A stretch of DNA of 43,179 bases from a virus. Numbering within the stretch: the first letter of the stretch is position 1; each line of letters starts with the position of its first letter. Where the stretch lies: positions 1 to 43,179 of the IMG/VR virus record IMGVR_UViG_3300044630_006976, one strand, 5' to 3'. Below, one piece after another: positions 3,224-33,365 of this stretch. The notes under the pieces were generated by a model. It was not told where the DNA came from. It worked only from the letters and a program-made list of their open reading frames with translations, and did no database searches. Both the position numbers and the translations under genes were made by a program.

Positions 3224-4231
3224 ATGACACCACGCGCCTTTCTCAGGTTGGTTGAAACCGACGTAGCACCATCATTCTTCATTACCGGCAACCACCCAAC
3301 ACGAGAAGTTGATCCGGCGGACTGCGGTGGAGAGCCTATGTGGGTGGTTCACTTTCCGCGAGGTTTCGAGACGCTGGACGTGGCGGTGATCGGCCACGGT
3401 CTGTGTGGTGCAGATGTTATTGATGCTGCCATGGGATTCCTGAATGCGGAACACCCTGAATCGCTTACGGCGGAGGAGCGAGATGCGGCATTCCCTGATG
3501 AACACGGAATCGCGGTGACGCCTCCGTCGCGCTCGAAGAAGGCGTGGGAGCCAACACCTGCGCAAACTGCTGCGAATGATGATGAAATGCGCGCCAACGG
3601 CTCCTTCCAGGAGGGCCGTCGCAAACCCGTTGCAGAGCGCAACGGAGACATTCACCGCATGAGTTTTGCACGCAGCGAGGCTGTGACAGAAGCTGCGAAG
3701 AGCCTGCGTGTTCAATGCGGCAACGGAAACACGGTGGACGGGTGGTATGATAGACTAAGTCGCAACTGGGTTGTACAGGTAAAGGATAGTGAGGAAACAC
3801 AGATTGGAGACGCGGAATACTCTGGCAGCCGTGGTAGTTTTGAAAACTCCATGCAGTGTCTGATTGATCAAAACGGTGGGCGCAGCGAACACATACCAAA
3901 CCGCACTGGGCATATGGCAGAGTCGGAGTCCAGCCAGGAACTCAGCTACGAAGAAACACTGTACCGTGGCGACGAGCAGGCAGAAGTTAAGGTGGTAATT
4001 ACAGCCACATATTACGGGGCCGAGGCTGGAATGCCGCAGTCGTATGCAAGTGGTGGCTCACCCCCGGACGCCGCCCGCGTTGACTTTGATAGCATCCGCG
4101 CATTCAAGGTAGACGGCTCGCACGAGAAGGTTGAGCTTGATGATGACGAGCGTGCTGCTGCTGAAGCCCGGCTTTCCACAATGGCGGAAGGCGGGTTTGC
4201 GGATGACCTCGGAGCGGACGACCGCGACTAG
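3224..4231 (+). CDS. Unknown protein with capsid-targeting-like N-terminus
   Basis: A 335-aa acidic protein I cannot assign to a family. I chose the ATG at 3224 because it gives the N-terminus MTPRAFLRLVET, the recurrent tag of this window (M-x-P-x-x-F-x-x-L-x-E). By analogy with T4 internal proteins, this tag would target the protein into the prohead and be cut after Glu. A second possible site is AVTE/A near residue 150. The region after it (VDGWYDRLSRNWVVQVKD) looks like a small beta domain. It follows the RNR gene by 31 bp and its 3' end overlaps the convergent gene by 4 bp. The packaged-protein role is inferred from the tag alone. Confidence 0.75.
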   Translation: MTPRAFLRLVETDVAPSFFITGNHPTREVDPADCGGEPMWVVHFPRGFETLDVAVIGHGLCGADVIDAAMGFLNAEHPESLTAEERDAAFPDEHGIAVTPPSRSKKAWEPTPAQTAANDDEMRANGSFQEGRRKPVAERNGDIHRMSFARSEAVTEAAKSLRVQCGNGNTVDGWYDRLSRNWVVQVKDSEETQIGDAEYSGSRGSFENSMQCLIDQNGGRSEHIPNRTGHMAESESSQELSYEETLYRGDEQAEVKVVITATYYGAEAGMPQSYASGGSPPDAARVDFDSIRAFKVDGSHEKVELDDDERAAAEARLSTMAEGGFADDLGADDRD

Positions 4232-4497
4232 AAGTGGCTTCTCACTTGCAGTGCTGTGGAGGCGAGCCTGCCGCCTAGTGCCCACCTAATATCGTTCGGT
4301 ATATATCCTAGACGATGGTTGGGTTGTTGGATGTTCTCTCCTTCCGGCATTACTCTTCCGCACCCGTTGTTGTTAAAGCAGATGACCCTTGCCGTGTCTG
4401 TGGTGAAGTCGAAGTCCGGGTGGTCGCTGAAGGCCATCAGTATTCGATTGATTCTGTTGGCTACTATCATTCCTAGCTGTGTGTTTGTTGTTCTCAT
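4228..4497 (-). CDS. Small unknown protein with its own promoter
   Basis: An 89-aa protein beginning MRTTNTQLGM, with no recognised family. An in-frame ATG at 4539 lies upstream of the -10 box at 4530-4535, so it cannot be on the transcript; this fixes the start at 4497. Unlike the other genes driven by this promoter type, it has a leader of about 26 nt (an ATA sits where the leaderless ATG would be). It is convergent with the tagged gene ending at 4231. Its position under an early-type promoter suggests a host-takeover role, but nothing in the sequence shows this. Confidence 0.65.
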   Translation of the reverse strand: MRTTNTQLGMIVANRINRILMAFSDHPDFDFTTDTARVICFNNNGCGRVMPEGENIQQPNHRLGYIPNDIRWALGGRLASTALQVRSHF

Positions 4498-4529
4498 GGT
4501 TTGTTGTTGGTTACTTGCTATATGGTTGC

Positions 4530-4558
4530 ATGTTAACACATAGGTGAACGTTTGTCAA
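4530..4558 (-). promoter_or_regulatory. Sigma70-like promoter for the 4497 gene
   Basis: Minus strand TTGACA (4558-4553), a 17-bp spacer ending TGT, then TAACAT (4535-4530). It has the ACTTGACA upstream context shared by the promoter family in this window. The predicted start of transcription is near 4523. Confidence 0.8.
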
Positions 4559-4623
4559 GTTTATTTGCGACTGCGCGGTCTGGCAGTGCTCGCAGAGTCT
4601 AGTTATTGCCACAACCAATTATT

Positions 4624-9136: not shown

Positions 9137-9235
9137 ATGAAAACCAAACTGGCAGATCTTGCACTGGAAAAAGCGGGATTTTTAAGCGCTGTTGTCGGGC
9201 AAACACGTACTCTAACCGTTTGGTTTCGCCAATGA
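9137..9235 (+). CDS. Short leaderless ORF coupled to the next gene
   Basis: A 32-aa ORF (start MKTKLADLALEKAG, end LTVWFRQ) whose ATG is placed exactly as in the other leaderless genes. Its stop overlaps the ATG of the next gene as ATGA at 9232-9235. KLADLALEKAG resembles the S-L-A-D-R-I-L-x-E-A motif of the packaged-type proteins. It may be a detached targeting peptide or simply a translated leader that feeds ribosomes into the 728-aa gene. Confidence 0.5.
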   Translation: MKTKLADLALEKAGFLSAVVGQTRTLTVWFRQ

Positions 9236-11418
9236 AGCTTCGCGAAGACCAAGTTCCAGCTCCGTCAGAGAACATTGGCACCCGCATCCAGCTGGCCATG
9301 CAAGCAGCAGGCCTTTGTGAAATTGACTCCGGGGAGGGCAAGGACCGGTTCTGGGCTACCGGTGAACGGAAGCGGGCCAAGCATGTAACATCGTCCGTGG
9401 TCCGCCGGGCCATCAAGAATCTCTTCGCGCATTCATCCATCAAGCCAGTGGCTATTCAGGTTACCCGGCGCAACAATACCATTCACGTCATCGTCATGAA
9501 ACCAACCATACAGGCCGAGGCCGCGCACATCACCAGCAACATCCTTAACCTGCTGGAGGGTCGCGGGCTGCACCGGGACGCTGCCTTCACGGCACTGGCG
9601 ACGAGAATCACGCGTGCTCGCAAGATGGCTCGTAGTGGGTTTGGAGATGATGCACCCCTGGTTGCGGCACAGATTGAACTGCGTCAATACCTGTCCGGGA
9701 AGCAAATTGACATTCACTCGGACCCTGAGGTCATCGAACTGCTGGAGAACTCTCGCAGCAATGAGCACGTTATTAGCACGTATGGCGGTTGGCGGCGTCT
9801 AGCGATACATAACGGTGCAACACGGTTTGAAGGAGACAAGGATATTGCCATCGCTTTCAATGCTAAAGGTCGAGCCGTTGGCGAGTGGGGTGGAGACGTC
9901 GGGTGGGTAACCATGATCTCCAAGTCCGTCGCGGACTGGCTGAGGTCCCCAAAGATTGGCGAGGGGCGCAGTGATGCTCCGTTCAGGGTTGGAGACCGTG
10001 TTGTGCGGGACGGTGGGGATGAGGGCACGGTCAAGCGCATGATCAAGAATGGTGACGAAGCCATGGACTGGATTTGCGAGGTGCGCTTCGACAACGGTGA
10101 TTACGACACGGTCGGCCAGCATTACCTGAATCTAATTGGGCAGTCTAGAGGGTCGCGCTATCAGCGGGGCACATGTAGCAACTGCAATGTGCCAATTGAG
10201 TCTTGGGGTCGCAACGAGTGGTTGGATAAGGACAAGAACACAACCTGCAAGGACGGGAAGAATCACACGAACTGGCGACGGGTGTCCGTGAAAGAAGGTG
10301 ACGGTCGCCAGGGATTTGATGTTCCTTATGACCGTGGTTCCGAAGAGGTCGACTTCCAGTGTTTCAAGTGTAAGAAGCCGTTTCATGCACCGTGGGACTG
10401 GGACCCGACGCAGTATCCATCATGCCCGCACTGCCGGTCTGGAGACGTTGGCGAGGTGCACCCGGTCGCAAGCGTCGGTCCGGAACAACGCCACCGTCGC
10501 CCGGTTGGTACAAGGCCGGGATACGTCAGGCCCAACCCACATCGGCACGACCCGCAGGGACCGGCAGTCATGGTGGCTGAAGGGGGTGACGTGCGCGAGC
10601 AGATGCTCGATGCCGGGTGGGAATGCCATTCCGGCAACTGGATGTCTCCGGTAACCGGTGAGATTCTATCATTTGAGCAGGCGCGGCATGAGTTTCTCAA
10701 CCCACCGGACGAAATGGACGACGACCTGCATGAGGGTCGCTTCAGTTACAATGTTGGCGATACGGTTAAAGGGCCGTTCGGCAATGCTGAGATCCTTCGC
10801 ATCGACCCGCCGACTCGCGAGAACTTCAACGGTGTGATTCATTGCAGGCAGATCGACGAGTTCAACGAGGAAATCAAGCCTGGGTTCGAGTTCGAGTCCA
10901 ACACATTTCAGTTTCACGGTCATGCAGATACGGGTCACGCAAAGCGGCTCTCGCAGCACACGGGCGGGGCATGGTCAGCCAATGAGTCCCTTGCCGACCG
11001 CATCCTTAAGGGCAGCCTCCGGGAATGTGAGGAGTTGATTGACGAATTGGAAGCGCGCGGATGCGGCGAGTATCGTGATGCCGGGCTCGGCGTACTGCAG
11101 AAGGTGCAGGGCGACGGTGCGCATCGCATCACGTACGACCCGAAGACCGGGCAGTTCACCAGCAACATCTGGGGTTCGGAAGCCGATGTGTGGGAGTCCA
11201 AGAAGCCAGTTACTGAGAACTGCGTCCGTACGCCGATCACGGCCACCACATCGAATCTTGGACGTTATATTGCGCCCGACAGCATTGCCAAGGTGAAGAA
11301 GCTCAAGCCCGGCAAGAAGGCAACGGTCAAAGGGATTGATGACTGCAAGCTGAAGGTGACGAATCTGCAGAAAAAGGGCGCAACGGGCGCTGCGACCTAC
11401 CGGGTCGAGCCGATATAA
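9232..11418 (+). CDS. Large unknown protein with zinc ribbons and KOW-like domains
   Basis: A 728-aa protein of unknown function. Features in order: a basic N-terminal domain (1-100); an SH3/KOW-like segment near 245-300 (FRVGDRVVRDGGDEGTVKRM...VRFDNGDY); a Cys cluster CSNCNVPIESW...C near 310-335; a zinc ribbon FQCFKCKKPF...CPHC near 378-405; a second KOW-like segment near 505-560 (FSYNVGDTVKGPFGNAEIL); and then ESLADRILKGSLRECEEL near 585, which matches the second recurrent motif of this window. PVTE occurs near 660. The ATG at 9232 is translationally coupled to the leader ORF. It occupies the place where a portal gene is often found in T4-like phages, but it does not look like a portal. 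Confidence 0.75.
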   Translation: MKLREDQVPAPSENIGTRIQLAMQAAGLCEIDSGEGKDRFWATGERKRAKHVTSSVVRRAIKNLFAHSSIKPVAIQVTRRNNTIHVIVMKPTIQAEAAHITSNILNLLEGRGLHRDAAFTALATRITRARKMARSGFGDDAPLVAAQIELRQYLSGKQIDIHSDPEVIELLENSRSNEHVISTYGGWRRLAIHNGATRFEGDKDIAIAFNAKGRAVGEWGGDVGWVTMISKSVADWLRSPKIGEGRSDAPFRVGDRVVRDGGDEGTVKRMIKNGDEAMDWICEVRFDNGDYDTVGQHYLNLIGQSRGSRYQRGTCSNCNVPIESWGRNEWLDKDKNTTCKDGKNHTNWRRVSVKEGDGRQGFDVPYDRGSEEVDFQCFKCKKPFHAPWDWDPTQYPSCPHCRSGDVGEVHPVASVGPEQRHRRPVGTRPGYVRPNPHRHDPQGPAVMVAEGGDVREQMLDAGWECHSGNWMSPVTGEILSFEQARHEFLNPPDEMDDDLHEGRFSYNVGDTVKGPFGNAEILRIDPPTRENFNGVIHCRQIDEFNEEIKPGFEFESNTFQFHGHADTGHAKRLSQHTGGAWSANESLADRILKGSLRECEELIDELEARGCGEYRDAGLGVLQKVQGDGAHRITYDPKTGQFTSNIWGSEADVWESKKPVTENCVRTPITATTSNLGRYIAPDSIAKVKKLKPGKKATVKGIDDCKLKVTNLQKKGATGAATYRVEPI

Positions 11419-11439: not shown

Positions 11440-11490
11440 CCCACACACCCACACACCCATGAGACCACACACCCATGAGACCATGCAACT
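11440..11490 (+). repeat. C/A-rich tandem repeat spanning a start codon
   Basis: Cytosine/adenine repeats (cccacacacccacacaccc) run into two 16-bp units CACACACCCATGAGAC, with ATGs at 11459 and 11475. Only the second ATG opens the next gene; the first is out of frame and leads to a short ORF. The run probably forms an unstructured leader for ribosome entry. Confidence 0.75.
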
Positions 11491-11759
11491 TCATCAGCAT
11501 AACGGAGGGCGATGACTTCAACCCGAGACCCGGAGAATCCGTTCGTGTAACCTCGACTGGCAGCGTGTCCGATAAGTCATGGTGGCGTGTGGATGGTACA
11601 CTGGGCACGACAAGTGTTGCTGGTACGGTAACGCTGCATCATGGCGGTGGTATGGAGTATGCGTCGGATGACGGCTCTGTTCTGGATCAAGAGGCATACG
11701 ACACACTGGTTGATATCATGGGTGATGCTGACCCGTCATGGCACGGGCAGGAGGAATAG
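11475..11759 (+). CDS. Small protein with capsid-targeting-like N-terminus
   Basis: A 94-aa acidic protein. The start MRPCNFISITEG matches the recurrent tag (M-x-P-x-x-F-x-x-I-x-E) with a predicted cut after Glu11. The remaining part (VRVTSTGSVSDKSWWRVDG...VTLHHGGG) looks like a small beta fold. No family recognised. It lies three bases before the next gene. A packaged internal-protein role is inferred from the tag. Confidence 0.7.
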   Translation: MRPCNFISITEGDDFNPRPGESVRVTSTGSVSDKSWWRVDGTLGTTSVAGTVTLHHGGGMEYASDDGSVLDQEAYDTLVDIMGDADPSWHGQEE

Positions 11760-12619: not shown

Positions 12620-12702
12620 CGAACACCATGAAACCGAACACCATGAAACCGCACACCATGAAACCGCACACCATGAAACCGCACACCATGAAACCGAACA
12701 CG
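12620..12702 (+). repeat. 15-bp in-frame tandem repeat with five start codons
   Basis: Five copies plus a partial sixth of CGAACACCATGAAAC (some with GCACACC), starting at 12620, 12635, 12650, 12665 and 12680. Each unit carries an ATG in the same frame and encodes M-K-P-[NH]-T. Copy-number change would add or remove start codons without a frameshift. Confidence 0.95.
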
Positions 12703-13014
12703 CTGGCCGAACGATTGTTGCAATCGTGCGGTCGTCGAGTCACCGAAACCAAACGTGGTCGCAATCCCGGTGTTCCGGCAGACATGGATGTTTGCACGTT
12801 CAATGCAGATACAGATTGCTTTGAAGACGGCAACGAAACCGCCGACATTATGGGGTTTATGCTGCGCACGAAGCAGGGTGATCCAATTATCGATGAAGAC
12901 GATGAAGGTGAATATGGGTATGGCATTTACGAGCAGCTGGCCGTCGCACAGGCAAAACTGCCTGCTCATCCGGGCGCAGATATCGTCGCCATTGACGATA
13001 TCAAGAAGTGGTAA
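12628..13014 (+). CDS. Unknown acidic protein with MKPHT repeats
   Basis: A 128-aa protein. Five M-K-P-N/H-T repeats precede TLAERLLQSCGRRVTE/T, which resembles the S-L-A-D-R-L-L-x-E motif followed by a V-T-E cut site. Any of five in-frame ATGs (12628 to 12688) could start translation, and the last one would give MKPNTLAERLL, closest to the usual tag length. The rest is acidic (DEDDEGEYGYGIYEQ) with no known family. It ends 5 bp before the next gene. Confidence 0.7.
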   Translation: MKPNTMKPHTMKPHTMKPHTMKPNTLAERLLQSCGRRVTETKRGRNPGVPADMDVCTFNADTDCFEDGNETADIMGFMLRTKQGDPIIDEDDEGEYGYGIYEQLAVAQAKLPAHPGADIVAIDDIKKW

Positions 13015-13019
13015 CTTTC

Positions 13020-13586
13020 ATGAAACCGAACATCATGAATATGACATTCATTCATCGGTCGCTTGCTGATAGACTGCTCGCCGAAGCCGCAACGAACGAC
13101 GTACAGAAGTTCCGAAATGCTGCTATTATATACTTTACCAAGAGCGGGTGGACCGGTCGTGATAAAGGCATGCGGGCGCTTAAGGCAGCAAAGACTCCGG
13201 CGGACCTGAATGATGCACTATATCTGTTTGCCGAGGCAGTTGGGCAGCGGAAAGGTTATGGCAGTGAAGGTGTAGGCAGCGTCCACCAAGAATTTCTTGA
13301 GGATGTGGCAAATCAAGCTGGTACAGGTGTGCCGGAAGACAGCGAGGCTGGGTGGGAACCGTTGGAGACGGAAGATGACCGCCGCGTTGCAGCAGACGCG
13401 GCGAGTCGAGTGACGCTGGAAAAATACAACCATGCGGTGCAGAAGATGCAGCAAGGGTACGATCTTTGGACGGCTCTGTGGTCTGCGGGTCTGGATGTTA
13501 AAGCTCTCGAGGCTGAGTACGAAGCGGAGGCCGCGAAGCTGCTCAGCGCCAAGTACCTCGCAAAGATGAAGGCAATGATTTCATGA
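13020..13586 (+). CDS. Unknown helical protein with SLADRLLAEA motif
   Basis: A 188-aa protein. The ATG at 13020 sits in a MKPNI segment similar to the upstream repeat. ATG codons at 13035 and 13041 are alternatives. FIHRSLADRLLAE/AA (residues about 10-23) carries an L-A-E/A site that a T4-type prohead protease would accept. The remaining part is mostly helical, with a C-terminal stretch (LEAEYEAEAAKLLSAKYLAKMKAM) that may be a coiled coil. The end overlaps the next ATG as ATGA. Confidence 0.7.
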   Translation: MKPNIMNMTFIHRSLADRLLAEAATNDVQKFRNAAIIYFTKSGWTGRDKGMRALKAAKTPADLNDALYLFAEAVGQRKGYGSEGVGSVHQEFLEDVANQAGTGVPEDSEAGWEPLETEDDRRVAADAASRVTLEKYNHAVQKMQQGYDLWTALWSAGLDVKALEAEYEAEAAKLLSAKYLAKMKAMIS

Positions 13587-14446
13587 ACCCATTTCAATTC
13601 ATCTCCCTCATTGATCCGGATGCCACACGCGTGGAGGAGGCGTTCATGTACGCCGTCATCTCCGCTCCGGACTTTGAAACGCTGCTGGAGCAGTATCCGG
13701 AGCGTGCCGTGGAGGCCCGTCGTCTGTATGAAAGCGTTCAGGCGGCTCAACGTAGCGTCTCCCGCCTGCAGGCCAGCGTTCGCCGCCAGTGCCCGCCAGA
13801 GCTGCACCGGTTTCTGACTGAGGCTGCCGTCATCTCCGACCGCGCCCGCAAGAACTGCACCCCGCAGCTCATTGAATGCATAGTACTTGCCGGAGTCGAA
13901 GCTACCCGGTTGACCGAGTCCATGCAGATTGGTGCTTACGACGACCGGATGGCCCGTGCAGCATGTGCCAGGTTGCATGAAGAGCTGGCCGTGGATGCTG
14001 AAGACCAGTTGAAGATGATTGGCAAGGCCAAGGGTGGAGCCACTCATGGCGGTGATACGCTCGGAGCCGAGCTGGCCAAGGAGCATGACACTTTTGTTCG
14101 GGCACTCGAGAAGGAGTTCAAGTTTAAGGCTCACCACTGGGAACCGGTGCGCGAAGGCGTGATGGTTTTCCTCGATCAGGAAGCCGTGGACGCCTTGACG
14201 CGTGGCCTAACCTACAATGCCGTCTTGCAGCGCATCACCGGGGAGCTCGGATACCTGATGGTTCAGCGCGGAGGAGCTCCGGATGACCTCGGCGGATTCG
14301 GTGAGTCACTTAGCAAGTGGATGTTCATCAAGTGCCCGCATGAGCTGGAGGACACCAACGACGCCAAGGCCTCTGCCAAGATTGGCAAGGATCGGGAGAA
14401 GGCGGCACAGAAGCTCCTCAAGGAAATCGAAAAACTTACTGACTAA
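13583..14446 (+). CDS. Unknown protein with variant capsid-targeting N-terminus
   Basis: A 287-aa, mostly alpha-helical protein. The start MNPFQFISLIDP fits the recurrent tag, but Asp replaces the Glu at the expected cut site, so cleavage may fail there. Other (L)-T-E sites occur at HRFLTE/A and TRLTE/S. There is a long helical middle (RLYESVQAAQRSVSRLQASVRRQ) and a Lys-rich end (EKAAQKLLKEIEKLTD). The start overlaps the previous stop (ATGA) and the stop overlaps the next ATG (TAATG), so the genes are coupled. Confidence 0.7.
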   Translation: MNPFQFISLIDPDATRVEEAFMYAVISAPDFETLLEQYPERAVEARRLYESVQAAQRSVSRLQASVRRQCPPELHRFLTEAAVISDRARKNCTPQLIECIVLAGVEATRLTESMQIGAYDDRMARAACARLHEELAVDAEDQLKMIGKAKGGATHGGDTLGAELAKEHDTFVRALEKEFKFKAHHWEPVREGVMVFLDQEAVDALTRGLTYNAVLQRITGELGYLMVQRGGAPDDLGGFGESLSKWMFIKCPHELEDTNDAKASAKIGKDREKAAQKLLKEIEKLTD

Positions 14447-15210
14447 TGGCTGACAACGCTGACAACGTTCACATTCGAAAGGGTAACGGGTTCTTTTACG
14501 CGGTACCAACACAGCAGACTCACAAAACTGTGGCTCGTGCAGGTTCGCACGCCACACTCCGCCGCAAGTTGATTCAGGCTGGATATGCTATCATTCCAGA
14601 GCCAGACACGATGGCAGAGTCCATGACGCCCACCACATTTATTGCGTTAACTGAGACCGGTATCTGGCCCGATAGCCCGACCGGTACCACGCTGCGGTCC
14701 GACCTGTACCAGAAAGCATGGACGCTGGCAAAGGCACAACCGGACTTCAATGCCTTCTGCACCATGATGGCATCACAGCTTGATGTGCGCTATCACAACC
14801 TCGACTCGGAAATTCAGCGCCAGTTGCGTGATATGTTTCAAGACGCCCGACGCCAAACGGACACTCACTGGGTTCCACCGTCTGCGCGGCGTTCAACCAC
14901 AACCGAGTCCGGTAATCGATTCACATCGCTAACCGAAGCGGACCAATCTGTGCGGTTTGACTGCGACGCTCGCGCTGAGGTGTGGGTGACCATGGGAGAT
15001 TTGGAAGATGACGGAGCTATTCAGAAGCTAAAGGCGTCTGCCTTGCCCGTAGAGGCCAAGATTATCGTTGCCAAGCGCCGTGCACTGGAAATGGCTCGAC
15101 ACGAGCTGGAGAATGTACATGGAGTGACCATTACGGCAGACCTGAGCTTGTCCAACATTAACGTGGATCGGGTCGACTGGGTGGCGCTGGTCAGCCCATA
15201 CGAGGACTAA
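14446..15210 (+). CDS. Unknown protein with an internal capsid-targeting motif
   Basis: A 254-aa protein. From the ATG at 14446 (TAATG overlap with the previous gene), a 59-residue N-terminal part (basic, GNGFFYAVPTQQTH) precedes M60-T-P-T-T-F-I-A-L-T-E-T, a perfect copy of the recurrent tag. Either the ATG at 14623 is a second start that makes a tagged protein, or two genes have fused in frame. The tagged part contains a second LTE/A site (TSLTEADQS) and a helical C-terminus (EAKIIVAKRRALEMARHELENVHG). No known family. Confidence 0.7.
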   Translation: MADNADNVHIRKGNGFFYAVPTQQTHKTVARAGSHATLRRKLIQAGYAIIPEPDTMAESMTPTTFIALTETGIWPDSPTGTTLRSDLYQKAWTLAKAQPDFNAFCTMMASQLDVRYHNLDSEIQRQLRDMFQDARRQTDTHWVPPSARRSTTTESGNRFTSLTEADQSVRFDCDARAEVWVTMGDLEDDGAIQKLKASALPVEAKIIVAKRRALEMARHELENVHGVTITADLSLSNINVDRVDWVALVSPYED

Positions 15211-16120: not shown

Positions 16121-17290
16121 TTACAACCACTTGACCATGTGAGCGCTATATCGACCATCTGGCATACCTTCGCTTTCCATCTCAAATCCAAGATGCGTCA
16201 GCAGTTTTGCTGCCACCGGATTAATCACCCAGTTGCGACAGCGTACCAGCAGGTCACCGCCTTCCGCCTTGGCTTCCTTAAGCATCGCCTGTATCAATTG
16301 CAGTCCGAGCAACCCGCCTTGATATTGTGGCAGAATAGCAATGTCGAAGGTGTAGTCTAGAAACGGTTCATCAGGTTCGCCGTTGTCCGGGTCACCATGA
16401 CCGTTGGAGAAGGCGGAGTATATGGCTCCAACCACCTTCTCACCAAAGCGTGCCTTCTGGTCTGCAGCTAATGCAACAAAGCTCAGCTTGCGGTTCCACA
16501 TCACCCGCAGTCCGCAGGCCTTGAAGACTTCCTCGGCCTGCACGTACATATCGCTATCATCCAACCCCATGGAGTTCTCCGCATCTTCATCATCGGAGTA
16601 ATGCTCGTCATCTCCGGTGAACCGCTGAATGCGGATGCCTGCGTCCTCGCAGAGTGCAATAAAGGCAGCTGGCTTCATAGATTCCTCGGTCCGCTCGTCA
16701 TACCAGATAACGTCTGCCGGAATGGTGCTCATCTTGAGAAACCATGCCGTGCCTCTAGCCCTGTGCTGCCCCTCTATGAGCCAGAATTCCTTCATGTCAT
16801 ACGTGCCAACCACCACGCATTCAAACCACCCTTCATCCTGCTTGATGGTGCGCGCCAGCTGTTCGATATATCGTGCTTCTCCCTCGTACCTGTCTCCTGC
16901 CGGACTACGCTGAATGTCAAGCGCCCGTAACGGTAGGAACTGCTTCCGCTTGATTGTAAAGTTTGCTGTCTCATTGGCCTGTGCGATCTGCACCAGCTCT
17001 TCATGTGGCGTTGAACGGATGGTACATGATGCCCACGTCCACTTTGGCTTGCGGCTGTACGCGAGGCTCGGTCTGCCGACCTTCCAGCAGGTTTTGAGCT
17101 TGTAAACTGGCATAGCAGCGGCGAAGGCGGCATTCTTTTCCGACCCTTGCACCCCAAACAGGGAACCATGATCGTGATCTGACTGCTCCAGCCGCCGGAA
17201 TATAAAGTCACGAGCCTCCTGCTCCGTTGTAAACTGGCGACGGGAGAGGTACTTCGACCAGTGGGCGATGTCTTTCTGGCTTAGCGTCAC
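16121..17290 (-). CDS. ParB-like / GNAT acetyltransferase fusion with internal targeting motif
   Basis: A 389-aa protein with two domains. Residues about 115-200 look like a ParB/sulfiredoxin-type domain (RYEGEARYIEQLARTIKQ, EGQHRARGTAW). Residues about 290-389 look like a GNAT N-acetyltransferase (FDIAILPQYQGGLLGLQLIQ as the acetyl-CoA loop region, LTHLGFEME at the end). Between them M205-K-P-A-A-F-I-A-L-C-E-D is a full copy of the recurrent capsid-targeting motif. An internal start at 16678 would make a tagged acetyltransferase of 185 aa; otherwise the prohead protease could release the C-terminal part. The start overlaps the SWIM gene stop (ATGA). The substrate is unknown. Confidence 0.75.
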   Translation of the reverse strand: MTLSQKDIAHWSKYLSRRQFTTEQEARDFIFRRLEQSDHDHGSLFGVQGSEKNAAFAAAMPVYKLKTCWKVGRPSLAYSRKPKWTWASCTIRSTPHEELVQIAQANETANFTIKRKQFLPLRALDIQRSPAGDRYEGEARYIEQLARTIKQDEGWFECVVVGTYDMKEFWLIEGQHRARGTAWFLKMSTIPADVIWYDERTEESMKPAAFIALCEDAGIRIQRFTGDDEHYSDDEDAENSMGLDDSDMYVQAEEVFKACGLRVMWNRKLSFVALAADQKARFGEKVVGAIYSAFSNGHGDPDNGEPDEPFLDYTFDIAILPQYQGGLLGLQLIQAMLKEAKAEGGDLLVRCRNWVINPVAAKLLTHLGFEMESEGMPDGRYSAHMVKWL

Positions 17291-18153: not shown

Positions 18154-18696
18154 ATGAATCCGCCGTACCAGCTCACCGACACTGCGTTTCTCCGTAGCGC
18201 CTCATTTGCGGCCACTCGATGGCAGATTAGCGGAGTAAACGGTGGCCTGGTTGGAGCAAAGGTACAGGTTTTGGTGACGAACACGGGTGGAGTCACCACA
18301 TCCTTCAAGTTCCAGACCGCGCCGCAGCCGCTGGACTCAGCAGTAACCGAGGCTCCGGCGCTGGACAATTTGCTGGAGTTAGCCATCCCCAGCTCCGGCG
18401 CGGACCCAAGTGCAGTGGTGTCCACGGAAACGTTGGGTGGGTTCAATAGCACGTTCACCACAATCACCACCTTCTTGAACACGGTTGCTAATACAGCAGG
18501 CGATATTACCATGACGCCTGGAGCCCGGATGCTGATCAGTTTCAAAGCCGGAGCATTCGTGCAACTGATACCAGTATCACCAACCAGCGTTCCAACCAGC
18601 GTGGGTCCGGGTATCCTCCGGTTGGAGGCATCTTGTAACCTGCCAATTGCCTGTGTTAGCCACGACCACCAACGGACGGCCATCTCACTTCGCTAA
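18154..18696 (+). CDS. Putative virion beta-sandwich protein
   Basis: A 180-aa protein starting MNPPYQLTDTAFLRSASF. It is rich in Thr, Val, Gly and Pro with beta-strand patterns (GAKVQVLVTNTGGVTTSFKFQ), similar in style to the 12239 protein. It contains AVTE/A near residue 70. I infer a structural or decoration protein. The N-terminus only partly resembles the tag (MNP, no F-x-x-L-x-E). Its end overlaps the next ATG (TAATG). Confidence 0.6.
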   Translation: MNPPYQLTDTAFLRSASFAATRWQISGVNGGLVGAKVQVLVTNTGGVTTSFKFQTAPQPLDSAVTEAPALDNLLELAIPSSGADPSAVVSTETLGGFNSTFTTITTFLNTVANTAGDITMTPGARMLISFKAGAFVQLIPVSPTSVPTSVGPGILRLEASCNLPIACVSHDHQRTAISLR

Positions 18697-19055
18697 TGAA
18701 CCCATCACGCTTTCTCAGCATGATTGAAGATGCTCCCGCCCGTGCTCACGCGTGGAACGACATGCCGGAGTATGCACGCCGAGAGGCAGTGCAGCACAAC
18801 CCCGAATTCCTGAAATACGTGCACCTGTCGTGGGAACGCCTGCCGCCGGTTATCAAGTCAGGGCTTTCTCACCTCGGCGAATCCGTCAGTTCGGTGGAGA
18901 CGGCCATTGATGCTGTGACGCAGGCCATGACCGACCGTGGAATCAGCACGCAGGAGGTGCGTGAGCATCAGGACCTGGTCCGTGCGGCTATTGAAAGCGT
19001 GGGACAGGATGCCGACGCTATTGGTGAGGAAGTGCTGAGCGCTCTTGAACACTAA
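18696..19055 (+). CDS. Small helical protein with capsid-targeting-like N-terminus
   Basis: A 119-aa protein. MNPSRFLSMIED is a clear copy of the recurrent tag, with predicted cleavage after Glu11. The mature part is acidic and helical (SSVETAIDAVTQAMTDRG, LVRAAIESVGQDADAIGEEVLSAL). It is coupled to the previous gene by a TAATG overlap, and the next gene starts one base after its stop. Function unknown; a packaged internal protein is inferred. Confidence 0.75.
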   Translation: MNPSRFLSMIEDAPARAHAWNDMPEYARREAVQHNPEFLKYVHLSWERLPPVIKSGLSHLGESVSSVETAIDAVTQAMTDRGISTQEVREHQDLVRAAIESVGQDADAIGEEVLSALEH

Positions 19056-19056
19056 C

Positions 19057-19578
19057 ATGACACCACGACGCTTCATTCACCTGATCGAATCCGGATCGGC
19101 AGTCCAGCAGTATGGACAGATTTGGTTACAGGCACGTACCTTCTTTAGTGAGCAGCAGGACGCGCTAGCCAGCCTCCCGGAAGAATCCGAGGATCGTTCC
19201 CGCGTGGAAGCAGCTCTCGGTATCATTGGTCAATACAAGATGGATGATAACTCCACGGACCAGCGTGCCCGTGACACGGCGCTGCTGCTGGCGGATCGTC
19301 TTGAAGGTATGGTGGATCGCCCGGTTGCCGCCGGGTATGACGGTGAGGATGACTCCTCGTACGAGAGAGTTCACGCATTCATTCACCAGCTGGCTAATGA
19401 CCTGCGAGAATTTCATGGTAGTACGCGGTCCAGTGATGTCGGGGCGGAGCCTGAAGGTACTGGAGAAGCGGAAGATGAAACGCCAGGTGGTGAACGCCGC
19501 CCGCATCTGAACAAAACCAAGGAGAAGCCAACGGACGGTCCGCGTGATCGGGATACCATCATTAAGCAGGAAGTATGA
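19057..19578 (+). CDS. Acidic protein with capsid-targeting-like N-terminus
   Basis: A 173-aa protein. The ATG at 19057 gives MTPRRFIHLIES, the recurrent tag with a predicted cut after Glu11. The middle is helical (QRARDTALLLADRLEGMV) and the C-terminal third is disordered and highly charged (EPEGTGEAEDETPGGERR then Lys-rich). The end overlaps the next start as ATGA. No family recognised. Confidence 0.75.
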   Translation: MTPRRFIHLIESGSAVQQYGQIWLQARTFFSEQQDALASLPEESEDRSRVEAALGIIGQYKMDDNSTDQRARDTALLLADRLEGMVDRPVAAGYDGEDDSSYERVHAFIHQLANDLREFHGSTRSSDVGAEPEGTGEAEDETPGGERRPHLNKTKEKPTDGPRDRDTIIKQEV

Positions 19579-19811
19579 CACCAACGTTCTTTGCAGTACT
19601 GACCGAAACCGCCGATATGACGCTACCATTTCCAACACTGGATAAGGCCAAGGAGGTGTACGCCGCCCTGTTGCGTGCGGCTAAGGCTGGACAGATGTCC
19701 GGATGGCCGGAACTGCAGGAAAACCCACCCGCCGTCATTGTTAAGTACTCCGGCACATCCGCGAAGCCGTCTCCGGCCCAAGCCTACATTCAGAAGCTAC
19801 CAACTCGATAA
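19575..19811 (+). CDS. Small protein with capsid-targeting-like N-terminus
   Basis: A 78-aa protein. MTPTFFAVLTET is a full tag copy, predicted cut after Glu11, leaving a 67-aa mature part (KAKEVYAALLRAAKAGQMSGW, then Pro-rich). Start overlaps the previous stop; the next gene begins one base after its stop. No family recognised. Confidence 0.75.
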   Translation: MTPTFFAVLTETADMTLPFPTLDKAKEVYAALLRAAKAGQMSGWPELQENPPAVIVKYSGTSAKPSPAQAYIQKLPTR

Positions 19812-19812
19812 C

Positions 19813-21477
19813 ATGAACCAGCACCTTTCCGATTTAAAGCTCATCACCACGCTCCACGGGCGGTTTACCGAGGGACGCCTGCTTGCCCTTGGCATCGCCA
19901 AGACAGCTATCCGCACAGCCGTTACGTCCCGGCTTTTGGTCGAGGCATCTGGGGTGCTTACCACCATCCCAGCGTTTCGTCGAACTGAACGCCTGCGAAC
20001 TGCCGGTTTGACTGAGGCAGTGGATCAGGCGGCTATGGACAAGGCCAATTACGTTCGTCGCATTGTGGACGGCAAGCCTGTCCTCCTGCGCGTCGTCAAC
20101 CGCCAGAATGGAAAACTGATGGTGCCTGATCCGGATAACCCGAACCGCAATATGGAGGTTGACCCAAATGATGTGGCTCCCGTGTCCGATGATGATGCGA
20201 AGAAGGAGCAGGAGGCCGAGAAGGCTGGGAGACCAGCACCGGGACAGGCTCCCGTGACTGAGGCGATACGTTTCAAAAATGGTGACCGTGTTACCATCGA
20301 GGGAGAGAACGGAGTATTTGTGCTTTCCCAGTGGGATGATGTACGTCAGCGCGGCTGGGCCGGTGAGGAATCTGGAACCGGAAGTGCTGGATGGCACGTT
20401 GGCGCTTACCAAATTCAGCATGCAGGTCCGGGGCAGGCTCCCGTGACTGAGGCTCACGGCGTCGCCACCCTGGAGCAGTACAAGGCTGCCTTGTCCGACC
20501 ACGTACGCGATTGTAAGGATCGACTTGAATTTTGGACGAATTGGCTGTCCGATATTGCCGATGCTCAAAATGTTGGTCAGCTTAACATCATTGCGCAGAA
20601 GTGCGGCGTGGATCACGAGTTTCGCGATGCCAAGCGCCGCCTGAATAGGCAACTCTGCACGGAAGGCGGAATGGCAATGTGGTCCGCACGCAACGATGGG
20701 CGACAGCCGGTGCGTGAAGCTATCCACCCGGACAATCAGTTTGCTGTTGACGACCAAGTATGTACACCAGATGGATCACCCGGCGTAATTGTGAGTGTTG
20801 GACCCGCCACGGCAATGGTGCAGTTTCCCAATGGTCCGGCAAAGGAAATCAAGCTAACCAAGTTGCAACTGAACCAGCCACCGCGCCGTCCGGTGCGAGA
20901 ATCCGAGGAAACCTTCAATGAGGAGGACTGGATCAAGGTGGTCGGGCGCGTCAGCGGACATGGCAAACGTGGTAAAGTAACTGGTGTTGCACCAAGCGGT
21001 CATTTTTCTGTTGTGAAGTTTGACGACGGCACGAGCGCCTCTTATCACAACTCGGACCTGGAACATTTGGATGAACCAGATGAGGATGAAGACGATAACC
21101 TTTTCGCAGAGTCTGCATCAAAGTCCCTTGCCGACCGCATTCTCTCTGAAGCCGAAACACCTCGCAGCCTCGCCCATCGCATTGAACGCCTTGCTGGTCA
21201 GTTCAGCAGAAAACCGCGCCGATGGGAGGATATCAAGAAAGTTCGCATTCCTCGTCACGAGTTGTCTGACCTGCAAACAATTCCGGCGTCAGAGTTGTTT
21301 GCAGATGAGGGTGGAGACGAAGCACCTCCGGGGGCACATTTCTCCTCTCCGCCGGATCGATACTTCGTGCTGGAGCGCAATGGACAGTTGTACCTTGTGG
21401 ATACAAGCGGCTACGATTATGCCCGTTATATCGTCGAGTTGAGCAGCACTGGTGCAGACCCTAACACCGGACGCTAA
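19813..21477 (+). CDS. Polyprotein-like protein with repeated cleavage-type sites
   Basis: A 554-aa protein. Six similar sites divide it: LTE68/A, PVTE150/A, PVTE213/A, PVRE302/A, PVRE363/S and ILSE446/A (the last in SLADRILSEAE). The segments between are about 60-90 residues. At least three contain an SH3/KOW-like pattern: FKNGDRVTIEGENGVFVL near 154, VDDQVCTPDGSPGVIVSV near 310, and WIKVVGRVSGHGKRGKVTGV near 373. If a T4-type prohead protease cuts after these Glu residues, one gene would yield several small proteins in the head. The ATG at 19813 gives a start one base after the previous stop. The cleavage is an inference; sites with V rather than L/I depart from the T4 rule. Confidence 0.7.
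   Translation: MNQHLSDLKLITTLHGRFTEGRLLALGIAKTAIRTAVTSRLLVEASGVLTTIPAFRRTERLRTAGLTEAVDQAAMDKANYVRRIVDGKPVLLRVVNRQNGKLMVPDPDNPNRNMEVDPNDVAPVSDDDAKKEQEAEKAGRPAPGQAPVTEAIRFKNGDRVTIEGENGVFVLSQWDDVRQRGWAGEESGTGSAGWHVGAYQIQHAGPGQAPVTEAHGVATLEQYKAALSDHVRDCKDRLEFWTNWLSDIADAQNVGQLNIIAQKCGVDHEFRDAKRRLNRQLCTEGGMAMWSARNDGRQPVREAIHPDNQFAVDDQVCTPDGSPGVIVSVGPATAMVQFPNGPAKEIKLTKLQLNQPPRRPVRESEETFNEEDWIKVVGRVSGHGKRGKVTGVAPSGHFSVVKFDDGTSASYHNSDLEHLDEPDEDEDDNLFAESASKSLADRILSEAETPRSLAHRIERLAGQFSRKPRRWEDIKKVRIPRHELSDLQTIPASELFADEGGDEAPPGAHFSSPPDRYFVLERNGQLYLVDTSGYDYARYIVELSSTGADPNTGR
20245..20453 (+). repeat. Two 20-bp direct repeats inside the polyprotein gene
   Basis: CAGGCTCCCGTGACTGAGGC occurs at 20245-20264 and again at 20434-20453, encoding the Q-A-P-V-T-E-A sites. 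The identity at nucleotide level suggests recent duplication of the linker or of a site-plus-domain unit. Confidence 0.9.
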
Positions 21478-22700: not shown

Positions 22701-22937
22701 ATGACACCCAAAGCATTTCACGCACTCATTGAGAACCTGGATGACGATTTGCACGCGCTGATCGAGCTAGCCAAGGGCGTGCAGGCGCGCAATGACCCAG
22801 CCGAGATTGCATCATTCCTGGAGAACAACCGTGCCGGGTCGATACAGGAGTATATCGCCATGTTGGATCAAAAGCGGACCGCCGCCCAGCGATCGGCAGC
22901 GCTGGATCGGGCGGCACTCGGTGGCGATACCTACTAG
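22701..22937 (+). CDS. Small helical protein with capsid-targeting-like N-terminus
   Basis: A 78-aa protein. MTPKAFHALIEN is a full tag copy, predicted cut after Glu11. The mature 67 residues are helical and acidic (LHALIELAKGVQARND, IQEYIAMLDQKRTAAQ). It is 5 bp before the next gene. Function unknown. Confidence 0.75.
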   Translation: MTPKAFHALIENLDDDLHALIELAKGVQARNDPAEIASFLENNRAGSIQEYIAMLDQKRTAAQRSAALDRAALGGDTY

Positions 22938-24189: not shown

Positions 24190-26013
24190 ATGAGTCGTAT
24201 TTCGCTTACTGAAACATTTGAGTTTCACCCGGTTGGGAAGCCAAGGCTACAGGAGTCTGTGGACGGCTCCGGACGTACCCGCACCCTCCAAAGCGGAATC
24301 TTCCAGAACTTCTTGAAGCAGAACGCCAACAAGCGCACCTATCCCAAGGGAATCTGGGAAGGCCTGTTCAAGGACGGCAGCGACTTCATGAACCGGATTA
24401 AGAACCGGGCGATGATCGGTCTTCTGGAGCATCCGGAAGACGGCGTAACGCGATTGGATCGCATTCCGAGTCACCTCATTGTCGAGGTTCATTTTGCAAC
24501 CCCGCAGGAGATCAATGAGACTCGCAACGACAAGCACCCGATTGAGGAGGGTGACATTGTTGGCACGCTCGAGGTTCTCGGCACGTCTACTGGCAAGGAA
24601 CTACTGGCGCTGATTGAGGCTGGTGTGCTTTTCGGTGTTTCCAGCCGTGGCGGTGGATCGCTCCGCGAGGATGGCGATGGTTACATCGTCGAAAACGATT
24701 TTGAATGCGAGACCTGGGACGTTGTGGCGGTTCCGTCCGTTCAACGGGCCACGCCGCACGTGACGACCCGCACCACCGAGGCTGCACCCGCACCTGCGAA
24801 GCCGGTTGTGGTGGAGGCCGCGCCTGCGTCGGTGGCAGAATCTGTTGTGGTGCAAAGTGATCTTGATGGCAGCATTGCAGGCACCTTCAACGACGAAGGT
24901 GAGGCTCGCGCATGGCTGGACGCGCATCACAGGTCCGGCAAGGACTGCCACGGCGTGCTTAAAATCCGGAACGCCGCTGCCCGCAAGTCCTTTGAATCCG
25001 GCACAATACCGGCTCCTGTCGCAACACCAGTTTCCACCTCTCCAACTCCCAAACTCACTGAATCCACAAAACCATCCATGAAGACCATCCGCGATCTCCA
25101 AATCGAACTCACGCAACTCCGGGCCACTCCCCTCAAGGGGCTGAAGCCCACTGACCGCGCCAACATCATCGAGGCCGTCCTCCAGATGCAGGTGAACCTC
25201 GGCAAAATCCTCGTTGAGGACGCCTCACAGAAGCCCCTGGCGGACCGCCTCGGCAAGCACCTCAATGAATTCATGGACGACCTCGACGAGCCCGAAACGG
25301 TCGACGCGACTCCGGCAGCTCCTGCGGCTGGTGAAGGTGATGAAGAGGGTGGCGAAGGAAATGAGACGATTCAGGCGGCTGCCGACAAGCTCCGCGAACT
25401 CGCTCCGGAAGATGAGGCAGTCACCGAGCTGGCCGACGAGCTCGAAGCCCTCTCCGACGAGTGCGCCCCGATGGATGATGATTCCGCCCCGGTCGAAGGT
25501 GAATCGGTCTCCGAGACCATCAAGCGCCTTCGCAAGAAGCTCGCCACTGAGTCCGCGAAGCGTACCCGCGTCGAGTCCACTCTCAGCAAGCTCAGCAAGG
25601 CCTCCGCGAAGCTCGTCGAGCGCCACAATGCGGTGCTCGCCCGCGTCAAGACCCTCGGGGAATCGGGTGGCAAGGACGGCGAGGCCATGAAGGCAGCTCG
25701 CGAACTCGCCACGCGTTACAACCGCGACATGATCGAATTCGCCAGCCTGCAGCTGCAGCGCACTCGCCCGGCACTGGCCGAAGCCAACGCCCCGGCCCTC
25801 AATGCATGCAAGACGTGGAATGCGTACAGCGCGCTGGTCGAGCGCCTCATCAAGGCAGCGCCCAAGAAGGTTCGCAAACCTTTCACTGAGGCGGCTCCGG
25901 CTCCCGGCACCAAGCCGAAGTCTGGCGCGGCTGTCAGGCCCGCGCTGACCGAAGCCGTGGTCAACCATCCGTCACTTCGCATGGCTACCCGCCACCGCCC
26001 GGTCGCGGCCTAA
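24190..26013 (+). CDS. Prohead protease (T4 gp21-like) fused to scaffold region
   Basis: A 607-aa protein. Residues about 1-210 match the phage prohead serine protease family: RTYPKGIWEG, GLLEHPEDG with the likely catalytic His, FGVSSRGGGS with the likely catalytic Ser, and CETWDVVAVPS. It matures the head by cutting capsid and core proteins. The rest is acidic, Ala/Glu-rich and partly coiled coil, as in scaffold proteins (T4 gp22). It carries many candidate self-cleavage sites: SLTE/T at residue 8, RLQE/S, LTE/S, LAE/A, FTE/A and LTE/A. An in-frame ATG at 25078 (residue 297, MKTIRDLQIELTQL) follows an A/C-rich stretch like the leaders of other genes, so a separate scaffold may be made. The capsid gene follows. 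Confidence 0.9.
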   Translation: MSRISLTETFEFHPVGKPRLQESVDGSGRTRTLQSGIFQNFLKQNANKRTYPKGIWEGLFKDGSDFMNRIKNRAMIGLLEHPEDGVTRLDRIPSHLIVEVHFATPQEINETRNDKHPIEEGDIVGTLEVLGTSTGKELLALIEAGVLFGVSSRGGGSLREDGDGYIVENDFECETWDVVAVPSVQRATPHVTTRTTEAAPAPAKPVVVEAAPASVAESVVVQSDLDGSIAGTFNDEGEARAWLDAHHRSGKDCHGVLKIRNAAARKSFESGTIPAPVATPVSTSPTPKLTESTKPSMKTIRDLQIELTQLRATPLKGLKPTDRANIIEAVLQMQVNLGKILVEDASQKPLADRLGKHLNEFMDDLDEPETVDATPAAPAAGEGDEEGGEGNETIQAAADKLRELAPEDEAVTELADELEALSDECAPMDDDSAPVEGESVSETIKRLRKKLATESAKRTRVESTLSKLSKASAKLVERHNAVLARVKTLGESGGKDGEAMKAARELATRYNRDMIEFASLQLQRTRPALAEANAPALNACKTWNAYSALVERLIKAAPKKVRKPFTEAAPAPGTKPKSGAAVRPALTEAVVNHPSLRMATRHRPVAA

Positions 26014-26071: not shown

Positions 26072-27517
26072 ATGAAAATCAACTCGCAACAGCTCGCCGA
26101 GACCTACATCCGGGGCCACCGCCTCGCTGAAGCAGGAATGGGCATCACCTCCAAACAATCTCTTACCGAAGCCAAGGGCTGGAAAGAGATGGTGGAGTCA
26201 ATCCGGGACCCGCAGAAGCGCGCCTTCACCGCCATCATGCTCGAAAACTACCGGAAGTACCGTTCCGGCCTCGATGAGGCAACCTCGACGCTCCAGATCG
26301 GCAACTACGACAAGTGGGCGTTCCCGATGATTTCCATCGTGTCGGAGAACCTCATCGCCCAGGACCTCGTCTCGGTGCAGCCGCTCGAAGGCCCCAACGG
26401 CACGGTGTTCTTCATGAACTTCAACGCCGGTCAGACCAAGGGCAACGTTGCCCGTGGCTCGAAGATCTGGGATGCGCGCACCGGCCACGCCGACCGTTAC
26501 CTCGACTCCTCGGATCGCGTCGAGTCTGAGACCATCGCGATGACGAACGGTGAAATTGCGAACGGCACCTCCCTCACCTACGGCCCGGTTCAGCCCGGTA
26601 CGGTGACGGTGACCCCGGCAAGCACCGGACCGCTCAAGGATGACGGCGCAGGCGCAATCGTGAACTCCGCTGGTACGCAGGTCGGTACCATCGATTACTC
26701 CACCGGCGCATTCAGCTCGTTCCAGACCACCGCCGCAATCAGCGGCACGGTGGCGAGCGATGACTCGGCGACCGTCAGCTACAACTACAACTCGGAAATG
26801 AACCCCGAGGCGCAGCAGATCGACATCGAAATCCAGTCGAGCCCGATCTACGCCGAGGAGCGCAAGCTCCGGGCGCGCTGGTCCACGGAGGCGGCAAACG
26901 CCCTCCAGGCCCTGCACGAGATCAACGCTGAAGACATGGTGTCCACCGCGATCACCAACCACCTCCAGTGGGAAATCGACCGCGAGATCATCGAAGACCT
27001 CCGCCGGTCCGCTGGTGCAGGCCTCGTCCGCTGGTCCGCTGCCATCCCGGCGGCGTCGTACATCAGCTACACCGAGCACAAGCTGAGCTTCGTGGACGCG
27101 CTGGTCTATGGCAGCAACTACATCTACCGTGCGACCAACCGCGTCAAGGCGAACTGGTTCCTCGGCGGCATCCAGGCGACGAACGTCCTCGAGACGCTTC
27201 CGAGCTTCGAGCCCGCCGCAGCTGGTGAGACCGAGACCGAAGGCGTCTCGCACCTCGGCAGCATCGGTCGCATGAAGTGCTACGCCGACCCGCATTACCG
27301 TACCGATGAAGGCCTCATGGGCTACAAGGGCCGGGACTTCGTCCGCGCAGGCTACATCTTCGCACCGTGGATTCTGCTCTACAGCACCATGCTGATCACC
27401 CTCGACGACTTCGTCAGCCGTAAAGGCTTCGCGTCCCAGTACGGGAAGAAAATGATTAACAACAAGTTCTACAGCAAGCTGAAGCTCAGTGGCTTCTCGA
27501 GCAGCTTCGGCGGCTAG
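26072..27517 (+). CDS. Major capsid protein (T4 gp23-like)
   Basis: A 481-aa HK97-fold capsid subunit. Sequence such as AFTAIMLENYRKYRSGLDEA, QIGNYDKWAFPMISIVSENL, GTVFFMNFNAGQTKGNVARG and ERKLRARWSTEAANALQALH is typical of the gp23 family. The N-terminal arm has two protease-type sites, HRLAE20/A and SLTE33/A, comparable to the cut that removes the gp23 propeptide in T4. The leader (cactcacacaaacaaccacg) is A/C-rich and lacks a Shine-Dalgarno. Codons end mostly in C or G, which fits very high expression. A terminator follows at 27546. Confidence 0.96.
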   Translation: MKINSQQLAETYIRGHRLAEAGMGITSKQSLTEAKGWKEMVESIRDPQKRAFTAIMLENYRKYRSGLDEATSTLQIGNYDKWAFPMISIVSENLIAQDLVSVQPLEGPNGTVFFMNFNAGQTKGNVARGSKIWDARTGHADRYLDSSDRVESETIAMTNGEIANGTSLTYGPVQPGTVTVTPASTGPLKDDGAGAIVNSAGTQVGTIDYSTGAFSSFQTTAAISGTVASDDSATVSYNYNSEMNPEAQQIDIEIQSSPIYAEERKLRARWSTEAANALQALHEINAEDMVSTAITNHLQWEIDREIIEDLRRSAGAGLVRWSAAIPAASYISYTEHKLSFVDALVYGSNYIYRATNRVKANWFLGGIQATNVLETLPSFEPAAAGETETEGVSHLGSIGRMKCYADPHYRTDEGLMGYKGRDFVRAGYIFAPWILLYSTMLITLDDFVSRKGFASQYGKKMINNKFYSKLKLSGFSSSFGG

Positions 27518-29445: not shown

Positions 29446-29500
29446 TGGTTTACGCGGCAAGTCGATCCAAACGCGCTGTCACCGTCTCGGTCTGTATTGT

Positions 29501-29938: not shown

Positions 29939-29947
29939 ATTGAGTCA

Positions 29948-32292: not shown

Positions 32293-32303
32293 ATTAGGCC
32301 GGG

Positions 32304-32322
32304 AGGAACGCTCAGCGTTCCT
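32304..32322. promoter_or_regulatory. Perfect 19-bp palindrome between divergent genes
   Basis: AGGAACGCT-C-AGCGTTCCT, two 9-bp arms around a single base, lies in the 36-bp gap between the purZ start (32292, minus) and the 32329 gene (plus). The one-base centre suits a dimeric repressor site better than an RNA hairpin. No repressor is seen nearby. Confidence 0.6.
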
Positions 32323-32328
32323 GTGTCA

Positions 32329-32598
32329 ATGCGATCCACCGGCACCGTATCACCTGACGTCCAGCCTGGCCTCATTGTGTACAGGCCATACTCACCGCAG
32401 AATGCGGGCGTCGTCATGCAGAACCTTGGCCGGGAGGGGCATGTGGCGAGGCTTATGATCCGATGGCTGGACGGCTCCGAAACTCCTGAGCTCAGTGCTA
32501 GCGTGCGCGACCTCGATACTCTGATTGCGGATCACGCGTCCAAGCTCAGCTATCACCGGAAAATCCGGAAGCGGGCGGCGGAGATCAACCTCTCCTAG
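32329..32598 (+). CDS. Small KOW/SH3-like protein
   Basis: An 89-aa protein starting MRSTGTVSPDVQPGLIVYR. The pattern PGLIVYRPYSPQNAGVVMQN...LMIRWLDGSE fits a single SH3/KOW-like barrel followed by a short helical end. Similar patterns occur in the 9232 and 19813 proteins. The ATG at 32329 follows the palindrome; the longer frame upstream overlaps purZ and is ignored. Function unknown. Confidence 0.6.
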   Translation: MRSTGTVSPDVQPGLIVYRPYSPQNAGVVMQNLGREGHVARLMIRWLDGSETPELSASVRDLDTLIADHASKLSYHRKIRKRAAEINLS

Positions 32599-32683
32599 AA
32601 CAGCGGTCATCGCACAGCCGTTCATCAGTCGCACAGATCACGTCTTCCTCGTTTAAGAGCCGGTGCGCTCCAGCGAACGCGGT

Positions 32684-32872
32684 TCACCTCCCGCGTCGCT
32701 GATCGTTCGGCCATTGCATCGCCGCATCTATCGCCTCGCGGGTGCTGCGGTGATTCACACGGAAATAGCTCGGCCCTGCATTGGCTCCCCGCGCTTCGTT
32801 GTAGAGCTGTCCGCGCACACGCACTCCGCTCATGTCCACTGAGCAGGTGGCGCGGGCGTGGCTTATGCTCAT
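32684..32872 (-). CDS. Small unknown protein
   Basis: A 62-aa basic protein starting MSISHARATCSVDMSG. No family recognised. The start overlaps the stop of a 32-aa ORF (TGATG), placing it third in a coupled minus-strand operon. Confidence 0.55.
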   Translation of the reverse strand: MSISHARATCSVDMSGVRVRGQLYNEARGANAGPSYFRVNHRSTREAIDAAMQWPNDQRRGR

Positions 32873-32970
32873 CAGGTTTCTTCGAGCCAGTCCAGACGCT
32901 GAGAGTCCGTGATGGCCGAACCAGTCACTGCACCACTAACTGCGGGCCGCTCCGGTTGCGCCGGTTTCAT
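32872..32970 (-). CDS. 32-aa coupled ORF
   Basis: Starts MKPAQPERPAVSG and ends QRLDWLEET. Its ATG overlaps the stop of the tagged 33365 gene and its stop overlaps the next start, which supports translation. The MKP start echoes the tag but there is no F-x-x-L-x-E. Confidence 0.5.
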   Translation of the reverse strand: MKPAQPERPAVSGAVTGSAITDSQRLDWLEET

Positions 32971-33365
32971 CTGGATAACTCTCCAGGTATAAGCACATTA
33001 ACAACTGAGTCTTCATGGTAACCCGCATCCTCGTCCTCGTCTTCCCCTGGCGCTGTTCGACTGATGTAAGGCGACCCGTCTCCGTCATACCCATACCACA
33101 GATGCACCTTAGGGTTGGGCATCAGAACACCTTGTGCATCGAACACCAGTGTGGCGCATGAGACCTCGCCACCGCCATCCTGCACAAGCGTATCCTCCCG
33201 CTGTTCAGCGCACTGATTGGCTTCAGCTACTGTTTGGAATGGTCCGTATGCCTCAGCTTCCACACCGTCCAAAGTTCGAATGCCAATGGCGGCAATATAC
33301 CCGTAAATTCCGGATTGAGGACTACGCTTGGTCTCTGTCAGTGCGTGAAATTGTGATGGCTTCAT
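32967..33365 (-). CDS. Protein with capsid-targeting-like N-terminus
   Basis: A 132-aa acidic protein. MKPSQFHALTET is a full copy of the recurrent tag, predicted cut after Glu11. The mature part has an alpha/beta pattern (IYGYIAAIGIRTLDGVEAEAYGPFQTVAEANQCAEQRED, VHLWYGYDGDGSPYI) and an acidic loop. It is one of the two tagged proteins coded on the minus strand and is far from the main cluster. No family recognised. Confidence 0.75.
   Translation of the reverse strand: MKPSQFHALTETKRSPQSGIYGYIAAIGIRTLDGVEAEAYGPFQTVAEANQCAEQREDTLVQDGGGEVSCATLVFDAQGVLMPNPKVHLWYGYDGDGSPYISRTAPGEDEDEDAGYHEDSVVNVLIPGELSR

Follow-up and report, generated by a model that had tools for sequence, protein, structure and literature searches.

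We analysed a virus record of 43,179 bases (IMGVR_UViG_3300044630_006976), called the window below, which encodes a T4-like structural set comprising a tail sheath, a tail tube, a gp21-type protease and a gp23-like capsid protein. An earlier note on this DNA had reported ten starts of the form M-[TNKR]-P-x-x-F-x-x-[LIM]-x-E and one variant with Asp in place of Glu (13583). All 11 lie where it had placed them, with open frames of 78-335 aa. Its statement that these tags begin proteins holds for nine of the 11 and is uncertain for those at 14623 and 16678, which are situated within longer ORFs. Searches of PHROGs and Pfam assigned no family to most of the proteins behind the tags (cargos) in the window. 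The features are:

3224-4231, plus strand: MTPRAFLRLVE/T, 335 aa, without known family
11475-11759, plus strand: MRPCNFISITE/G, 94 aa
12628-13586 (12628-13014 and 13008-13586), plus strand: two adjacent genes, both bearing another N-terminal motif, [ST]LA[DE]RLL
13583-14446, plus strand: MNPFQFISLID/P, Asp for Glu, 287 aa; likewise Asp in G003
14623-15210, plus strand: MTPTTFIALTE/T, 195 aa from the tag Met, within ORF 14446-15210
14920-14937, plus strand: internal FTSLTE/A in ORF 14446-15210; separate gene start MNPRRFTSLTE in G003
16121-16678, minus strand: MKPAAFIALCE/D ahead of a GNAT acetyltransferase domain; the tag is in frame in ORF 16121-17290
18696-19055, plus strand: MNPSRFLSMIE/D, 119 aa; the G003 version differs in the C-terminal half
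19057-19578, plus strand: MTPRRFIHLIE/S, 173 aa
19575-19811, plus strand: MTPTFFAVLTE/T, 78 aa
22254-22682, plus strand: MNPTKFVTLTE/T, 142 aa; G003 has another tagged cargo at a comparable place (48440)
22701-22937, plus strand: MTPKAFHALIE/N, 78 aa; tag identical in the G003 ortholog
24190-26013, plus strand: prohead protease gp21/Peptidase_S77 with a long scaffold-like C-terminal extension and predicted catalytic His81 and Ser151
26072-27517, plus strand: major capsid protein, gp23-like; LAE20 and LTE33/A conserved, LDE69/A invariant
32967-33365, minus strand: MKPSQFHALTE/T, 132 aa

The tag is enriched at protein starts

When Met is not required, the pattern xxPxxFxx[LIM]xE matches ten times in the six frames of the window, and the first residue is Met in 10 of 10. 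Among 611 ATG-started open N-termini, ten fit M-x-P-x-x-F-x-x-[LIM]-x-E. The 2000 column-shuffle trials average 0.024 matches and none exceeds 1; the matches are not due to chance. The earlier note had proposed a motif search of the window and related phages as a check. We ran this search naively, scoring every residue-class triplet in the first 16 positions of N-termini, and P3/F6/E11 emerged as the top start motif, with 10 observed versus 0.2 expected in the window, 15 versus 0.4 in its relative G003 and 11 versus 0.3 in its relative G016. It is not top-ranked in more distant relatives. The same procedure applied to T4 does not place the known capsid-targeting sequence (CTS) clearly first among triplets because its members are few, and the method therefore detects large sets only.

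Capsid-based searches retrieved G003 (98% capsid identity), G001 (75%), G002 (66%), G005 (60%), G004 and others, and G016 was added via a cargo-based search; no capsid relatives were found in the cellular genome contigs searched. Across 17 records, a degenerate DNA pattern of the tag gave 41 matches in four closely related records (G000, G001, G003 and G016) and none in the 13 other capsid-related records, while the reversed pattern, used as a control, matched twice in about 1.3 Mb. G003 (61 kb) alone carries 16 Glu-type tags. Variant tags that keep F-x-x-L-x-E occur in G005 (MIEFLKLFE/A, MIEFLRLFE/S and MPVKFLQLFE/S; five ATG-started versus 0.7 expected), and weakly enriched ones in G002 (MNLNHFLLLVE/S and MNTHQFVRLLE/K; 3 versus 0.9). 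A 595-kb uncultured phage, first among the capsid matches, has two tag-pattern matches, which is not above chance.

Collapsing the tags of the four records by cargo left 26 tag-cargo combinations with about 25 distinct cargos (one pair is orthologous). Mean identity over these combinations is 46% for residues 2-11 and 6% for residues 13-42, with Pro3 and Phe6 invariant by construction since the search pattern set them. Where the pattern allowed alternatives, position 9 is Leu in 23 of 26 (otherwise Met or Ile) and position 11 is Glu in 24 of 26, the other two tags ending in Asp. Conservation ends at Glu11, with nothing conserved past it; the P1' residue is mostly T, A, G, D, S or N. Synonymous codons vary at every conserved tag position, indicating that selection acts on the peptide. 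The bodies beyond the tag are unrelated, as had been claimed: blastp at E<0.01 among the cargos returned only the ortholog pair and a fused copy.

Cargo domains and apparent exchange of leaders

The single cargo in the window with a recognisable fold is a predicted GNAT acetyltransferase (16678; Pfam 21.8 bits, cut-off 20.7). Tagged cargos of relatives include a predicted ART-PolyVal ADP-ribosyltransferase (G003:16515; 32.3 bits, cut-off 31.2) and a predicted 2H phosphoesterase (G001:29590; 29.7 bits, cut-off 27), the latter also matching anti-CBASS Acb1 slightly under the cut-off (24.4 versus 27). These predicted ART and 2H domains would suit injected effectors. Single-sequence structure predictions were poor, with a mean pLDDT of 54 for G003:890 and 42 for the GNAT cargo.

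Homology of the G003 ART to jumbo-phage proteins starts at query residues 11-16, directly after the tag. The leaders of the jumbo-phage ARTs end in I-x-E/G or similar; for example, CBB has MEMKKLMEDISAIME/G, and PHA46 and fENko-Kae01 have MMNLKELQESISSIME/G. An ART body behind another leader of the same kind in distant phages is good evidence for a replaceable propeptide. Experiments on homologues back the reading weakly: the fENko-Kae01 homologue was detected by LC-MS/MS in an ultrafiltered preparation, although its authors state that this cannot prove a virion location (PMC11218385), and the paper on CBB, virion protein table included, does not name the homologue of that phage (PMC5259590).

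Protease and capsid protein

The gp21-type protease that the earlier note had recognised is indeed encoded (PF03420, 37.2 bits, cut-off 27), and its His81 and Ser151 align with the His and Ser of T4. In the T4 gp21 structure 5jbl, exactly these two residues are Ala, as they would be in an inactivated mutant. The protease gene adjoins the capsid gene. In the capsid protein, the L-A-E/A and L-T-E/A sites pointed out before are real and conserved (LAE20 and LTE33/A), but as the maturation site LDE69/A appears likelier: E69 is invariant across the capsid relatives, as LDE/A or LDE/V. On alignment, LDE69/A would mark the mature capsid N-terminus because it is nearer the T4 gp23 cut region, where the alignment has a gap.

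Shine-Dalgarno sequences are absent upstream of the major structural genes at 26072, 24190 and 8534 and of most tagged genes, which may hint at the kind of host.

Tags within longer reading frames

The tag at 16678 (minus strand) lies in frame inside a 389-aa ORF (16121-17290) that joins a weakly ParB_N-like upstream half, the tag and the GNAT domain on one polypeptide, an arrangement with no match among annotated phages. Upstream of the tag, the window and G003 differ at seven positions, all seven of them third codon positions, and this part is therefore translated in the same frame. GAGGA precedes the tag, which could be either a translation start within the ORF or a place where its product is cut.

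Besides the tag at 14623, ORF 14446-15210 has a second F-x-x-L-x-E/A site inside it (14920-14937). The second site starts a separate gene in G003, overlapping the stop of the first gene, whereas the window and G016 have an in-frame linker instead of the stop and start and keep the F-x-x-L-x-E/A core. The comparison of these three closely related records fits a core that could be used as a protease site within a polypeptide. It is possible, if doubtful, that the CTS has here become a general connector for a large number of injected effectors that are encoded separately and shuffled rapidly, with the tags in fused ORFs acting as protease sites through which one precursor yields several packaged proteins.

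Two long proteins without known family are encoded at 9220-11418 and 19675-21477. In the latter, recurring domains are separated by multiple P-V-[TR]-E-[AS] and L-T-E-A sites, and its predicted sequence resembles that of a polyprotein processed by the prohead protease.

A candidate capsid-targeting propeptide

With a probability of roughly 0.8, we read the tag as a lineage-specific capsid-targeting propeptide, analogous to the CTS of T4 internal proteins and cut after Glu11. This reading draws on a tag that is short, conserved up to the Glu and ends in L-x-E, on a Peptidase_S77 protein with both His and Ser, and on the ART and 2H cargos. During head assembly, the M-x-P-x-x-F-x-x-L-x-E leader would dock its cargo on the prohead core, and the gp21-type protease would then cut after Glu11 to free the mature cargo inside the head. 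Injected along with the DNA, the cargo could disarm or reprogram the host immediately, and recombination behind the tag would bring in new cargos. Several points speak against capsid targeting: the tag has only [LI]-x-E in common with T4 MKTYQEFIAE, no family is known for most window cargos, 2 of 26 tags end in Asp and two lie inside longer ORFs.

The two Asp ends would also suit an uncut peptide that docks proteins on the head or another virion part, its Glu belonging to a binding helix, as would the eleven CBB proteins that share an MLPFxRxxEYGN-type N-terminus without an L-x-E end. We consider such a peptide unlikely, given that nothing beyond Glu11 is conserved, that the phage encodes a gp21-type protease and that homologous ARTs have different leaders likewise ending in I-x-E. 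It is very improbable that the tagged proteins are a recently expanded paralogous family whose bodies diverged fast while the N-terminus was kept for no packaging role: some tag DNAs are near-identical (G003 22662 and 23111; window 22701 and G003 48440), yet the cargos are dissimilar with distinct predicted folds (ART, 2H and GNAT, by Pfam), and tag codons have diverged with the residues unchanged.

Short leaders are also placed on unrelated proteins by RiPP-like and other systems, and the tag could be recognised by another enzyme or partner, whether as a leader of the RiPP type, as a mark for proteolysis or as a signal targeting a host structure. There is little to recommend this, as no matching enzyme was recognised in the window while a prohead protease was, the recognisable cargos are globular enzymes, and L-x-E agrees with the T4-type cleavage rule. 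The lack of Shine-Dalgarno sequences at most tagged genes could instead point to a nucleotide-level signal at gene starts (a promoter, translation or recombination element) that reads as a peptide by chance; such sequences are also missing from the major structural genes, the codons vary synonymously and every occurrence is in frame with Met, which leaves this explanation hardly credible.

Comparison with known systems

In T4, injected anti-restriction proteins that are otherwise unrelated share a conserved CTS (PMC3012670, PMC12373910, PMC9391042). The two systems are alike in having a short N-terminal leader on unrelated proteins, a hydrophobic-x-Glu end, a gp21 protease, a variable cargo set and an ART among the cargos (the packaged Alt in T4; in relatives here). 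They differ in the leader, which has P3, F6, L9 and E11 here while the T4 leaders MKTYQEFIAE and MELITELFDE lack P3 and F6; comparison with these gave no sequence homology of the tag to the T4 CTS. The present system also has many more members, tags within longer ORFs and a protease fused to a scaffold-like extension. An arsenal much bigger than in T4, as had been suggested, is borne out as a count, with 11 tags in the 43-kb fragment and 16 in G003 versus IPI, IPII, IPIII and Alt in T4; for T-even phages taken together, at least 10 Ips are known (PMC12373910). Relative to the T4 CTS strategy, scale, cargo shuffling, candidate internal cut sites and a different leader would be new.

Polyvalent proteins (PMC5512222; for example Tunturi_5 gp321) have a similar repertoire of ART-PolyVal, 2H and GNAT domains and are thought to be injected, but join their domains on one large polypeptide, whereas here the cargos are mainly separate small proteins with their own leaders. 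Tunturi_5 gp321 (L109:6432-10520; 1362 aa), beside tail and head genes, is annotated as a MutT/NUDIX hydrolase; it contains 2H and GNAT domains, ART-PolyVal in three stretches and, below the threshold, a SprT-like match. On these domain predictions, it is probably a polyvalent protein and the annotation wrong.

Inner-head proteins of the giant phages phiKZ and SPN3US resemble the tagged proteins in their Glu-specific prohead protease, and SPN3US gp53 and gp54 have an identical 15-residue N-terminus (PMC5694885). Unlike the tag, several of their propeptides are longer than 100 residues, and their motif reads A-x-E or S-x-E.

The naive motif search, run on CBB, also brought up the N-terminus MLPF....xYGN or YAN common to its eleven proteins (L118-L136, at 345-355 kb and elsewhere), whose bodies differ. 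These are probably virion parts with a common anchor of another kind than the tag.

If the capsid-targeting reading is right, a simple N-terminal pattern would single out those orphan phage proteins that are injected as infection begins and that are probably rich in counter-defence functions. For this lineage it would offer about 25 candidates, an ART and an Acb1-like 2H enzyme among them, and it would suggest that the T4 strategy works with another leader and at larger scale. The search for enriched triplets at start codons is applicable to other phages with a gp21-type protease.

A second motif

The motif [ST]LA[DE]R[LI]L, frequently with xEA after it, occurs in the window in the two neighbouring genes 12628-13014 and 13008-13586 and at 10987 and 21124, and also at G003:45101, G001:16017 and G001:22649. 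It lies near the N-terminus in some proteins and internally in two long ones, and two G001 ORFs that are unrelated to each other end in a version of it, DLPESLADRLLG*. The motif may be a further element for core binding or targeting. At the start of the first of the neighbouring genes (12628-12700), tandem 15-base repeats coding MKPHT differ in copy number from G003.
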